A stretch of 64,000 nt of DNA from Candidatus Limnocylindrales bacterium. GTDB lineage: Bacteria; Moduliflexota; Moduliflexia; Moduliflexales; JAUQPW01. Under the pieces are notes generated by a model. That model was not told the DNA's origin. It saw nothing but the letters and a program-made list of their open reading frames with translations, and made no database searches. Shown here in pieces: positions 10,799 to 15,914 of the stretch. Position 1 is the stretch's first letter, and the number at the start of each line of letters is the position of its first letter. Position numbers and translations under genes: made by a program. The stretch is from contig DATMBG010000022.1 in the NCBI GenBank assembly GCA_035559535.1, forward strand, positions 1-64,000, written 5' to 3'.

Positions 10799-12577
10799 AT
10801 GTTCGCGGCTGAATTTCTTGCGACCACCCTGGCCCTTATTGGTATTATTATTCTGGTGGCGGCCTTGTTGTCCGGGCTGACTGAGCGGAGCGGTCTACCC
10901 CAGGTAGTAATCTTTCTGATCTTAGGGGCCTCTATTGGGCCGGCGGGTTTAGACTTATTGAACCTTACCTTGAATTCACCGGAATTACGCGTGATTGCAA
11001 CGCTTAGCCTGGTACTGGTCTTGTTTACCGATGCCATTACCCTGGATATCCATGAAATAAAAACCCATCGGGCCCTGGCGTTCCTGGTTTTGGGACCCGG
11101 AACGTTGTTATCGGCGGCTCTGATTGCCTTCGCCGGCTGGGAATTGCTTGGCTTAACACCTGCCGCAGCCACCATTCTTGGCGCTGCGCTGGCTTCTACG
11201 GATCCTGTATTACTTCGGGGGTTTTTGCATCGCCGGGATCTTCCCAATGCAGTTCGCCTGGCGTTAAAGCTGGAGAGTGGTTTAAACGACGTTGTGCTCT
11301 TACCGATTGTGCTTGTGGCGATGGTCTTTATTAACCCAGAAGCCACCCTTCATGCCATCTATTGGGCCCGTCTGGGTCTCGATCTTTTCGTATTAGGACC
11401 GGGTGCCGGTGTTGCTGTAGGATTATTGGCCGTGGCGGCACTTGATTTAATAAGGCGACGGATCGGAGTACGACGCGATTATGAGTCCCTCTACTCATTG
11501 GGGGTAGCATTTACTGCTTATGCCGCTGCGGAAGCAGTTCATGGAAGTGGTTTCCTGGCCGCATTTGCTGCCGGAATGACCATTATTGTATTAGACGTCG
11601 AGCTTTGTGATTGCTTCCTGGAATACGGCGAAACCACGGCTGAAATGGCCTTACTTTTCACCTTTGTATTGTTCGGTAGTTCGCTGATCTGGACCGGTTT
11701 TACCGTACTTAATGGAACCATGCTACTCTTTGTGATGATTGCCCTGTTGGGAAGACCGGCGATCTTCCTGATTTTACTGGCCCGTACAGGTTTGGATGGG
11801 TGGGGACGGTTTCTAACTTCCTGGTTTGGGCCGCGTGGACTTAGTTCTTTATTGATCGTTTTACTGCCTGTCTTTGCCGGACTACCGGAAAGCGAAAGAC
11901 TTTTCAGGATCTGCTGCCTGGTAGTCCTGGCGTCGATCTTACTCCATACAGTTTCCTTCATGATGCTAAACCAGGGTTCCCATCGGGCAAAACCCAAACC
12001 AACTGTTGCCGTTAAAACCGGTCAGCCCGAGCCATTGCCTGGTCCATCTCCTGTTATAAAGGAACCCATTTCCTCTGTTACCTCTGAAAACAGGTCTATT
12101 CTGAATCCTCTTCCCTCCAACGATGCAACCCTATTTACCGATTCCGTAACACCGATAATTTCCGTTGATTCCAATAATTATCCCCGTGCTGATACAAGCG
12201 GATCAACCCCTTCGGACCGCATCTCTCTTGAAGACCTCCGTCAACTCTGGCGACTCGGTGCGCCGGTGATCCTCCTCGATGTCCGAACTGAACGGACTTA
12301 TAGAGATAGTCCTTACCAGGCCCAAGGTGCTATACGAATGCCTCCGGACCATGCTGTGGAACGAGCAATTGAACTTGGCTTACCACGCCATGCCTGGTTG
12401 GTCGCCTACTGTGCTTGACGTGGCGAAGCGACCAGTGCCCGGGTGGCACGGGAACTTCGACAGGCAGGCTGGCCTTATGCTCGTAGTCTGATCGGTGGAT
12501 GGGAGGCCTGGCAGGTGGCCGGTTTACCTGTGGAACCCAAAGCGGATTCAAATCGAGAAGAAAGTAAGGTAGAGTAA
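10799..12577 (+). CDS. Na+/H+ antiporter-rhodanese fusion with in-frame TGA (candidate selenocysteine)
   Basis: Residues 1-395 form a CPA1/NhaP-type cation:proton antiporter with about twelve membrane helices (ASTDPVLLRGFLHRRDLP, ESGLNDVVLLP, GSGFLAAFAAG). A Pro/Ser-rich cytoplasmic linker leads to a rhodanese domain from about residue 470 (ISLEDLRQLW, VILLDVRTER, IRMPPDHAVERA). The frame reads AYCA, then TGA at 12416-12418, then continues without stops for 53 codons (RGEATSARVARELRQAGW, LIGGWEAWQVAGLPVEP) to a TAA at 12575-12577. The resumed frame is exactly the rest of the domain. Homologous rhodanese loops, as I recall them, read YCACP-x-E-A-T-S, so TGA occupies the second Cys position, after catalytic Cys538. 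Either the UGA is read as selenocysteine (592-residue product) or the gene is disrupted at the active site (539 residues). Confidence 0.75.
12432..12451 (+). promoter_or_regulatory. SECIS-like hairpin downstream of the in-frame TGA
   Basis: GTGCC at 12435-12439 pairs with GGCAC at 12445-12449. Outside a bulged A (12434), CC 12432-12433 pairs with GG 12450-12451. The apical loop CGGGT (12440-12444) starts 21 nt after the TGA and has G at its second position. Known bacterial SECIS elements need a stem-loop 16-37 nt after UGA with a G early in the apical loop, so the geometry fits. A chance stem in GC-rich coding sequence is the alternative. Confidence 0.5.
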
Positions 12578-12723: not shown

Positions 12724-13149
12724 ATGAAACGTAAAGCATCGGCCATCTGGAAAGGCAGCCTTAAGGAGGGTAAAGGAACTATCTCAACCGATAGTAGAGT
12801 CTTATCCGATACCCCTTATTCTTTCAGTACCCGTTTTGAAAATGGTATCGGGACAAATCCTGAAGAACTCATTGCGGCAGCCCATGCAGGCTGTTTTTCC
12901 ATGGCTCTCTCGGCTCAACTGGGAGAAGCAGGGATGGTCGCACAAAGCATCCATACCACTGCTACGGTTACGCTGGAAAAACTTGAAACCGGGTTTACTA
13001 TCACGGCGGTTCATCTCGATGTAACGGCTCAGATTCCAGGTGCTGATCGGGCTGCCTTTGAAAAAGCAGCCCATAAAGCTAAAGAGGGATGTCCGGTCTC
13101 CCGGGTTTTGAATGCAAAAATTACCATGGACGCAAAGCTAGAGACTTAA
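12724..13149 (+). CDS. osmC: OsmC/Ohr-family peroxidase
   Basis: 141 residues. The OsmC fold is clear: [43 protein letters not shown] (Cys57), [19 protein letters not shown] (Cys123). These two cysteines are the peroxidatic and resolving pair that reduce organic hydroperoxides at the cost of thiols. The [15 protein letters not shown] motif places it with OsmC rather than Ohr. A strong TAGGAGGAAATT site precedes the ATG. It follows the antiporter-rhodanese gene by 146 bp on the same strand, a possible thiol/redox neighbourhood. Confidence 0.92.
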
Positions 13150-13274
13150 AAATCTGGGGTTTTATCTCATTTCTGATCGGATAAAACTTATCAGGATAAA
13201 GGAAGTATGGAGAGATAAAAATCCTGGGATGAATTTTATCTCAATCTTATCCCTGACAAGGAGGAAGAGAAGAT

Positions 13275-13742
13275 ATGATCACATTTATTGTAAATGGAAA
13301 AGAACAAACCGTAGAGGTTATTCCTGGTACCCCTTTATTGTGGGTGCTGCGAGATAATCTCGGCTTAACCGGCACCAAATTTGGCTGTGGCATGGCCCAA
13401 TGTGGAGCCTGTACGGTACACCTGGATGGAAATGCCATCCGTTCCTGTGTGACGCCTATAGAAGCCGTCTCTGGGAAAAAAGTTACCACCATTGAAGGAC
13501 TGTCCCCGGATACCAGTCATCCTTTACAAAAAGCCTGGATTGCTCAAGACGTACCCCAATGTGGCTACTGCCAATCCGGCCAGATCATGGCGGCAGCCGC
13601 CCTGCTGGCCCAAAATCCGAATCCTACCGATGCCGATATCGATGAGGCCATGTCCGGGAACATCTGTCGCTGTGGCACTTATCAACGAATTCGAAGTGCC
13701 ATTCATCAAGCGGCCAAGATGATGAAGGAAGGAGGTCAATAA
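13275..13742 (+). CDS. iorA: Isoquinoline 1-oxidoreductase-type small subunit (2x[2Fe-2S])
   Basis: 155 residues, typical for the small subunit of molybdenum hydroxylases. A plant-type ferredoxin domain carries [21 protein letters not shown], and a helical domain carries CGYCQSGQ and GNICRCGTY, together supplying eight Cys for two [2Fe-2S] clusters that pass electrons from the molybdenum centre. A strong AAGGAGGAAGAG site precedes the ATG. The large subunit starts 3 nt after its stop. No FAD subunit gene is present, as in isoquinoline- and nicotinate-type two-subunit enzymes using cytochromes or quinones as acceptors. Confidence 0.92.
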
Positions 13743-13745
13743 ACC

Positions 13746-15914
13746 ATGAATCAGCCTACAGGAATCACACGGAGAGATTTTTTCAAAGTCGGTTTAGTTG
13801 CAGGAGGCGGATGGGTTTTAGGATTTTATCTTCCCAGAGGAGAAGGAGGTTGGGGTAAAGCAGCAACGGAATCTGCAACGATTTTTGCCCCCAATGCCTG
13901 GATTCGCATAACTCCCGCTGGGACCGTGACAGTGATGCTTCATAAATCAGAGATGGGACAGGGGATTATGACTTCGCTGCCCATGTTGGTGGCCGAAGAG
14001 TTAGAGGCGGATTGGAAGATGATTCGACCTGAATTTGCTCCGGCTGATGAAGCTTACTTTACCTGGATCACCCCCACCTTTGGAGCTCAATTCACGGGAG
14101 GAAGTCGTAGTATTCGGGGATCCTGGGAAACCTTACTCAAAGCAGGAGCCGTAGCCCGGGAGATGTTGATAGCCGCAGCCGCTGAGACCTGGGGAGTAGA
14201 AGCCAAGACGTGTCAGGCTGAGGATGGCGAAGTGATCCATCCAGCCAGTGGGAAGCGGGCCTCTTACGGTTCCCTGGTCAGTAAAGCCACTACAGTACCT
14301 GCTCCTAAAGAAGTTACTCTGAAAGATCCTAAAAACTACAAGTTCATCGGCAAACGGATGGCCCGCGTGGATACTTTTTCCAAAGTCAACGGCAGTGCCG
14401 GGTTTGGCATTGACGTGAAAGTGCCCGGGATGTTGGTAGCCACGGTGTTAAGATGTCCGGTGTTTGGAGGGAAATTAGCCCGTTATGATGACTCTAAGAC
14501 GAAGACCATTCCCAGTGTCAAGCAGGTGGTTCCTATATCCAGCGGAATCGCGGTGGTAGCTGAAGGATACTGGCCTGCCAAGCTGGGATTGGAAGCCTTA
14601 GAGGTGCAATGGGATGAAGGAGAACATGCTCAACTCAACAGTGAGAAGATTCGGGAAGAGTTTAAGAAGGCCTCGGAGCAAGCCGGAGCAGTAGCCAGAA
14701 GAGAAGGAGATGCCTTGCATATGCTGGCCGTGGTAGGGAAGACGGTGGAAGCCGTATATGAAGTTCCCTTTTTGGCCCATGCAACCATGGAACCTATGAA
14801 TTGCACGGCGCATGTGCGGGAGGAGGGATGTGATATTTGGGCTCCAACCCAGGCCCAGACGGGAACCCAACAAACAGCGGCAAAGATCACAGGACTACCG
14901 GCTGAGTCGATCCGGGTCCATACCACCCTGTTAGGCGGAGGCTTTGGAAGACGATTTGAAATTGACTTTGTAGCAGATGCCGTGGAGATATCCAAGGCCG
15001 TAAAAGCCCCGGTAAAGGTAATCTGGTCGCGGGAAGAGGATATGCGCCATGGTTTTTATCGTCCGGCAACCTATAATGTTTTGAAAGCCGGAATCGATGG
15101 AAAAGGGAACCTGGTGGCCTGGACCCATCGAATCGTGGGACCTTCGATTCTGTCTCGGGTATTCCCAGATAGAATCAAAGATGGCATTGATAGCAGTTCT
15201 GTAGAGGGGGCAGCGAATATTCCCTATTCCATTCCCCATATGTATGTAGATTATGTGATGAAGAATACGGGAGTTCCGGTGGGTTTTTGGCGCTCGGTGG
15301 GAAGCTCCCAGAATGCCTTTATTACAGAAAGTTTTATCGATGAAATAGCAGCAGCAGTCGGGAGAGATCCCTATGAATTTCGTCTGGAATTGCTGACCAA
15401 GGCTCCCCGTCATAAAAGGGTCTTAGAGTTAGCAGCCAGCAAAGCGGGATGGGGACAACCGTTACCAGAAGGAAGATATCGGGGGATTGCCGTAGCGGAG
15501 TCTTTTGGGAGTTATGTAGCGGAAGTTGCAGAAGTATCCGTAGATAAAGAAGGTCAGGTGCGGGTCCATCGGGTGGTATGTGCTGTGGATTGTGGGAAGT
15601 ATGTAAACCCGGATACCATTGAGGCCCAGATGCAAGGAGGAATTGTGTACGGATTAACGGCGGCGTTGAAGGGAGAAATTACCATTGAGAATGGGCGGGT
15701 GAAGCAAAGCAACTTCCATGACTACGAGATGTTACGGATGGAGGAAATGCCAGTGATAGAAGTCTACCTTGTGGAAAGTCAGGAAGCCCCCGGAGGAATA
15801 GGAGAGCCCGGAGTACCTCCCATTGCTCCTGCAGTAACCAATGCAATCTTTGCAGCAACCGGAAAGCGAATCCGTAAACTACCCATTCGCGCAGAAGATC
15901 TGAAGAAAGCTTAA
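13746..15914 (+). CDS. iorB: Isoquinoline 1-oxidoreductase-type large subunit (Mo-cofactor binding, Tat-exported)
   Basis: 722 residues. A twin-arginine signal ([17 protein letters not shown]) opens the protein, so the assembled enzyme likely sits in the periplasm with the small subunit carried along. Mo-cofactor loops are visible: [43 protein letters not shown], and near the end [18 protein letters not shown] with the likely active-site Glu of xanthine-oxidase-family enzymes. Oxidation of an N-heterocycle or aldehyde is expected; the precise substrate cannot be read. MobA, needed for the dinucleotide form of the cofactor, is encoded at 38669-39280. An AAGGAGG lies within the end of the small-subunit gene. 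Confidence 0.92.

Follow-up and report, generated by a model that had tools for sequence, protein, structure and literature searches.

An antiporter–rhodanese gene interrupted by TGA

The window analysed here, 64,000 nucleotides of contig DATMBG010000022.1 from Candidatus Limnocylindrales bacterium (GCA_035559535.1), carries a gene for a membrane antiporter whose frame continues across an in-frame TGA into the remainder of a rhodanese-like domain (Table 1). The upstream part, 10799–12418, is an open frame of 539 amino acids with no other stops. The codons around the site read ...H-A-W-L-V-A-Y-C-A, TGA (12416–12418), R-G-E-A-T-S-A-R-V-A..., so that the TGA falls inside the rhodanese domain, at YCA-U. 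On re-reading, the frame described in the initial annotation, AYCA and TGA followed by the rest of the rhodanese domain and then TAA, proved correct, except that 52 sense codons follow the TGA and not 53. Further downstream (12724–15914), an OsmC-like gene and apparent small and large subunits of molybdenum-hydroxylase type were recognized by eye; these genes are kept in a sister genome of the same genus but hardly in other carriers.

Table 1. Features of the predicted fusion gene and of related genes elsewhere in the host genome
Feature	Location	Strand	Remarks
Antiporter–rhodanese fusion gene, predicted selenoprotein	10799..12577	+	592 aa with Sec540; TAA stop 12575-12577; read-through architecture same in homologous loci
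CPA1-type cation/proton antiporter domain (res. 20-387)	10856..11959	+	PF00999 Na_H_Exchanger, 121.6 bits; motifs S133-T134-D135-P136 and N163-D164
C270-D-C272 motif, candidate redox partner of CxU	11606..11614	+	invariant 40/40; start of helix 267-303 (model)
Linker (res. 391-470)	11969..12208	+	mostly disordered, pLDDT < 50 for 406-470; fast-evolving, dN/dS 0.76
Rhodanese domain, LYCAU type (res. 473-581)	12215..12541	+	PF00581, 27.0 bits; NF041203, 81.8 bits
C538-A539-U540, putative redox motif	12410..12418	+	predicted Sec codon TGA 12416-12418; C538 and U/C540 invariant 40/40; codon TGA in 50, TGC/TGT in 7
Looser lower SECIS stem, 5' arm (weak evidence)	12424..12428	+	pairs with 12455-12459; 77.6% of cells paired
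Candidate bSECIS apical hairpin, GUGCC-CGGGU-GGCAC	12435..12449	+	loop 12440-12444; 21 nt past UGA; 100% paired in 50 sequences
Looser lower SECIS stem, 3' arm (weak evidence)	12455..12459	+	partly conserved
selD with in-frame TGA, candidate Sec-containing selenophosphate synthetase	contig 29: 76668-77594	+	locus L077
Stand-alone LYCSU (YCS-U) rhodanese selenoprotein gene with TGA	contig 55: 34665-35036	+	locus L081; 175 bits to NF041203

Decoding of the UGA codon

A sequence-pattern scan of 84,980 genomes yielded 57 homologous loci, 56 of which are readable at the site. The alignment across the TGA that the initial annotation had proposed as a check gave TGA in 49 of these and TGC or TGT in seven; TAA, TAG or any other codon was found in none. 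Retention of the TGA in the sister genome (G001, 91% identity) and in this large majority of homologues confirms, at the level of sequence, that it is real and conserved far beyond chance. By their labels, the TGA carriers belong to Acidobacteriota, Chloroflexota, Gemmatimonadota, Myxococcota (Deltaproteobacteria), Thermomicrobiota and, in one record, Cyanobacteriota, and they include the isolates Ktedonosporobacter rubrisoli (L039, complete chromosome) and Dictyobacter aurantiacus (L033). The Cys forms come from Nitrospirota, Armatimonadota, Chloroflexota and one unclassified bacterium, and at least three Sec/Cys changes are required by the full-protein tree. Nearly all loci have an uninterrupted frame through the antiporter, with its end 41–57 codons past the site, the exceptions being L034, which leaves the contig end, L076, which runs on, and L050, which is broken upstream. 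In L050 (Candidatus Manganitrophus sp. GAC4, complete genome) the break lies between the antiporter and a Cys-type rhodanese and could reflect a sequencing error or gene fission. The plasmids searched gave no match to the gene.

The TGA might instead be a true stop that leaves a truncated antiporter and the remains of a rhodanese domain in decay, or it might be a misassembled TGC/TGT. The host genome (5.6 Mb, 95.8% complete) is indeed a draft of 58 contigs, and the TGA is followed by Arg and not by the Pro found after the site in all seven Cys forms. The initial annotation had seen a possible sign of decay in this Arg, a concern that is unfounded, since the position is variable in the TGA family (P, R, T, Q, K, G, H and others). 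Moreover, the identical TGA recurs in the other genomes listed above, isolates included, and the codons past it, whose conservation had also been put forward as a check, are under purifying selection: in the comparison with the sister species, dN/dS values in the rhodanese domain are 0.04 before the TGA and 0.19–0.23 after it, against 0.76 in the linker. Together with the covariation of the SECIS hairpin described below, conservation and dN/dS refute a true stop, decay or assembly error, which we consider extremely improbable.

Consistent with recoding, the host genome contains all four components of the selenocysteine system for which the initial annotation had suggested looking: tRNA-Sec (selC; 74.5 bits, called tRNA-SeC(tca) by ARAGORN), selA (622 bits), selB (408.6 bits) and selD (388.6 bits). 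The selD gene has an in-frame TGA of its own, in the context ECGG-U-AAK, a position occupied by Sec in many SelD proteins. A stand-alone rhodanese gene likewise contains a TGA, and the hairpin that follows it, GTGCCCGGGTGGCAC, matches the one in the antiporter gene letter for letter; its product has an N-terminal hydrophobic stretch that by eye resembles a signal peptide. In all, the host has at least three genes of the in-frame-TGA kind, namely the antiporter fusion, the stand-alone rhodanese and selD. The sister genome has a counterpart of the stand-alone gene (L082) and one more TGA-containing match (L083).

Across carriers, the Sec machinery is distributed in line with the codon at the site. 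tRNA-Sec scored over the cut-off in 20 of 23 TGA genomes versus none of seven Cys genomes (p = 6e-5), and selB in 34 of 43 versus one of seven (p = 0.002); at least one of the two was present in 42/43 and 1/7, respectively. A few TGA genomes have just one of them, but such gaps are expected because most carrier genomes are drafts. The genome of L026 (G008, Acidobacteria MAG8) has four tRNA-Sec matches over the cut-off and no selB at E <= 1e-40. Neither selB nor tRNA-Sec was found in the assembly of Scytonema tolypothrichoides VB-61278 (L074), which has the TGA form; in the tree its gene sits inside Oscillochloridaceae sequences, and the record may represent contamination or a recent transfer.

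Genome-wide reassignment of UGA to another amino acid, or its decoding by a suppressor, would equally leave the frame open over the UGA. However, the genome encodes a complete Sec system, the sole substitute at the site is Cys, and TGA ends other genes in the window according to the earlier reading of the sequence. On the grounds of this Sec system and of the split between Cys and Sec forms, reassignment was rejected; it is also made unlikely by the SECIS hairpin and deserves virtually no credence.

A hairpin with a 5-bp stem and a 5-nt loop (mostly CG[G/U]GU) occupies positions +17 to +31 past the TGA in all 50 TGA genes, that is, the 49 from other genomes and the window's own. Every stem cell pairs, 11 of them being double-change cells; compensatory changes on both sides occur at three of the five stem pairs, and the covariation score was reached by none of the shuffles. 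Among the Cys homologues, 51% of hairpin cells are paired and the stem is not conserved. Codon usage within the hairpin is equally constrained in the TGA genes: the Ser codon is always AGY (36% expected), the loop Arg codon is always CGT or CGG and never CGC, the commonest (40%), and the Ala/Thr/Val codon ends in C without exception. These invariant codons, together with 5.0 stem pairs seen against a mean of 3.2 from synonymous resampling, imply that codon choice is forced in the hairpin. The stem reads GTGCC/GGCAC in the host and GTACC/GGTAC in the sister genome, a difference that is unpolarised and accompanied by Ala/Thr and Ala/Val differences; judged from sequence comparison, RNA pairing was kept while the protein changed.

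Published constraints on bSECIS elements comprise a loop of 3–9 nt, an upper stem of 4–16 bp, a G in the first two loop positions and a distance of 16–37 nt from the UGA (PMC13188914). All 50 hairpins fall within these limits, with a 5-nt loop CG[G/U]G[U], 5 bp and 21 nt. Thermodynamic folding of the single sequence was uninformative (z = -0.15 for the 62-nt region alone, and -0.91), hence the use of comparative tests, and a search of Rfam with the SECIS stretch returned chance matches alone and no fitting model. Overall, the sel genes, the TGA/Cys homologues, dN/dS and the SECIS-type hairpin agree with the proposal of the initial annotation that UGA is read as selenocysteine, giving a CxU motif on a membrane antiporter. 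On this comparative evidence, the gene very probably encodes a selenoprotein with Sec at the UGA.

Rhodanese and antiporter domains

On the read-through protein, the Pfam Rhodanese model matches residues 485–572 above its gathering threshold of 22.2 bits. A closer relationship is apparent with NF041203, rhodanese_LYCAU ('rhodanese-like domain-containing protein form 3, CxU'), to which the domain is homologous over nearly the whole profile (21–126 of 126), with the CxU in the same place (YCAU). It differs in forming the predicted cytosolic C-terminus of an antiporter and in its score, which at 81.8 bits (78.6 in the genome scan) lies below the curated 115-bit cut-off, and because of this score it is not filed under NF041203. 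The stand-alone host gene, with its TGA and the same 15-nt hairpin, is an over-cut-off member. CxU rhodanese selenoproteins have been described previously, as form 3 (PMC13188914) and as CxU form 2 (PMC9312934), and by its sequence the antiporter-linked domain is a diverged relative of this known kind. The catalytic Cys of rhodaneses lies in a CRxGx[RT]-type loop, and two alignments place it differently: the single-sequence alignment by phmmer matched this Cys of 6mxv to U540, leaving the loop gap-free, whereas the profile alignment placed C538 there with a two-residue gap.

The antiporter domain is predicted to adopt the 13-helix NhaP fold of PaNhaP and MjNhaP1 (TM-score normalised by target ~0.72), and the ND and TDP residues shared with these proteins are present, placing it in CPA1. 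S133, D135, N163 and D164 are invariant in the alignment of 40 sequences. The protein differs from PaNhaP and MjNhaP1 in its additional rhodanese domain, in the invariant CxC at 270/272 and in overall sequence (~20% identity), and it misses the cut-offs of the CPA1 equivalog models (137.2 versus 355 bits for NF003716 and 48.3 versus 279.6 bits for TIGR00831). The CxC is carried by every close relative in the ten genomes examined and is missing in the next-nearest, rhodanese-free CPA1 paralogues (27–29% identity). The AlphaFold model (mean pLDDT 84) consists of two confident domains with a disordered linker between them. Since four membrane crossings, counted as helices in the model, separate the CxC from the C-terminus, the CxC would lie on the same side of the membrane as the rhodanese domain, and the arginine-rich loops suggest that this side is the cytosol.

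Proposed function and relation to known selenoproteins

We propose that SelB and tRNA-Sec decode the UGA as Sec, as the comparative evidence indicates, with the hairpin directing insertion while doubling as coding sequence. The predicted product would be a CPA1-type antiporter joined by a flexible linker to a cytosolic rhodanese-like domain with Cys-x-Sec in its active loop. The CxU pair would sense or transfer oxidising equivalents or sulfane sulfur and pass these to the antiporter, probably via C270-x-C272, so that ion/proton exchange would be coupled to the state of thiols or sulfur, in a manner like the gating of KefC by its regulatory domain. The glutathione-regulated K+/H+ antiporter KefC, a fold match, likewise combines an antiporter with a C-terminal cytosolic sensor of thiol chemistry, although the likeness is one of analogy only; its domain is of the RCK/KTN type and involves no selenium. 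The invariance of C538, U540, C270 and C272, the lack of the CxC in the rhodanese-free paralogues and the fold matches to NhaP and KefC speak for such a function, while the unconserved neighbourhood and the disordered linker count against it. Redox or sulfane-sulfur control of antiport by the CxU is the likeliest function, which we put forward tentatively and at somewhat less than even confidence. More speculative still is its specific form, a selenium-dependent switch in which the CxU would oxidise, reduce or persulfidate the private CxC and thereby gate cation/proton exchange.

A comparison of neighbouring families over the ~57 loci found none common to more than five. This would fit a self-contained device, and equally a tethered enzyme with other targets. 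Under the latter reading the UGA is recoded, but the two halves are only loosely linked, the rhodanese being a membrane-tethered sulfurtransferase or thiol oxidoreductase with other proteins as its targets and no part in regulating transport. The long, disordered and fast-evolving linker, the occurrence of a stand-alone CxU rhodanese selenoprotein in the host genome and the failure to find a conserved partner gene agree with it, whereas retention of the fusion in several phyla and a CxC private to this antiporter subfamily and lacking from the rhodanese-free paralogues do not; we regard it as a possible, though doubtful, explanation. Selenium supply could also decide which product is made, the 539-aa antiporter if translation stops at the UGA or the 592-aa selenoprotein if Sec goes in, the codon itself being the selenium-dependent switch. 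UGA read-through is generally inefficient in bacterial selenoproteins, and the UGA follows a complete transport domain, so that both products could be membrane-competent. However, the rhodanese domain would be cut in half in the short form, and all Cys forms, whose genomes almost always lack Sec machinery, retain the rhodanese tail beyond the site, making a two-product arrangement improbable.

Selenocysteine has been reported in other membrane transporters, namely YeeE/YedE, MerT-like proteins, E1-E2 ATPase, SaoP and SO_0444 Cu/Zn efflux proteins (PMC13188914), none of which is described there as an antiporter–rhodanese fusion; words starting with 'antiport' or 'exchanger' are absent from the main text of that review. 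Neither the 2022 and 2026 reviews (PMC9312934, PMC13188914) nor the other literature searched, a partial coverage of the field, names a selenoprotein that is an antiporter or exchanger, and the fusion is not among the selenoprotein families of Haft and Tolstoy (2025) to the extent that these are given in the 2026 review. Within this coverage, the antiporter–rhodanese fusion appears to be new, although the CxU rhodanese selenoprotein as a kind is already known. The protein matches no NCBIfam model at cut-off, and for this reason standard gene callers probably stop it at the UGA, losing the reactive residue. The selenoproteome would thus gain an antiporter-fused family, present in about 50 other bacteria and spread over at least five phyla, that would link selenium to ion and pH homeostasis. 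With a recurrent Cys/Sec pair and a private CxC in one transporter, it offers a concrete, testable hypothesis of how ion exchange might be controlled by redox state.
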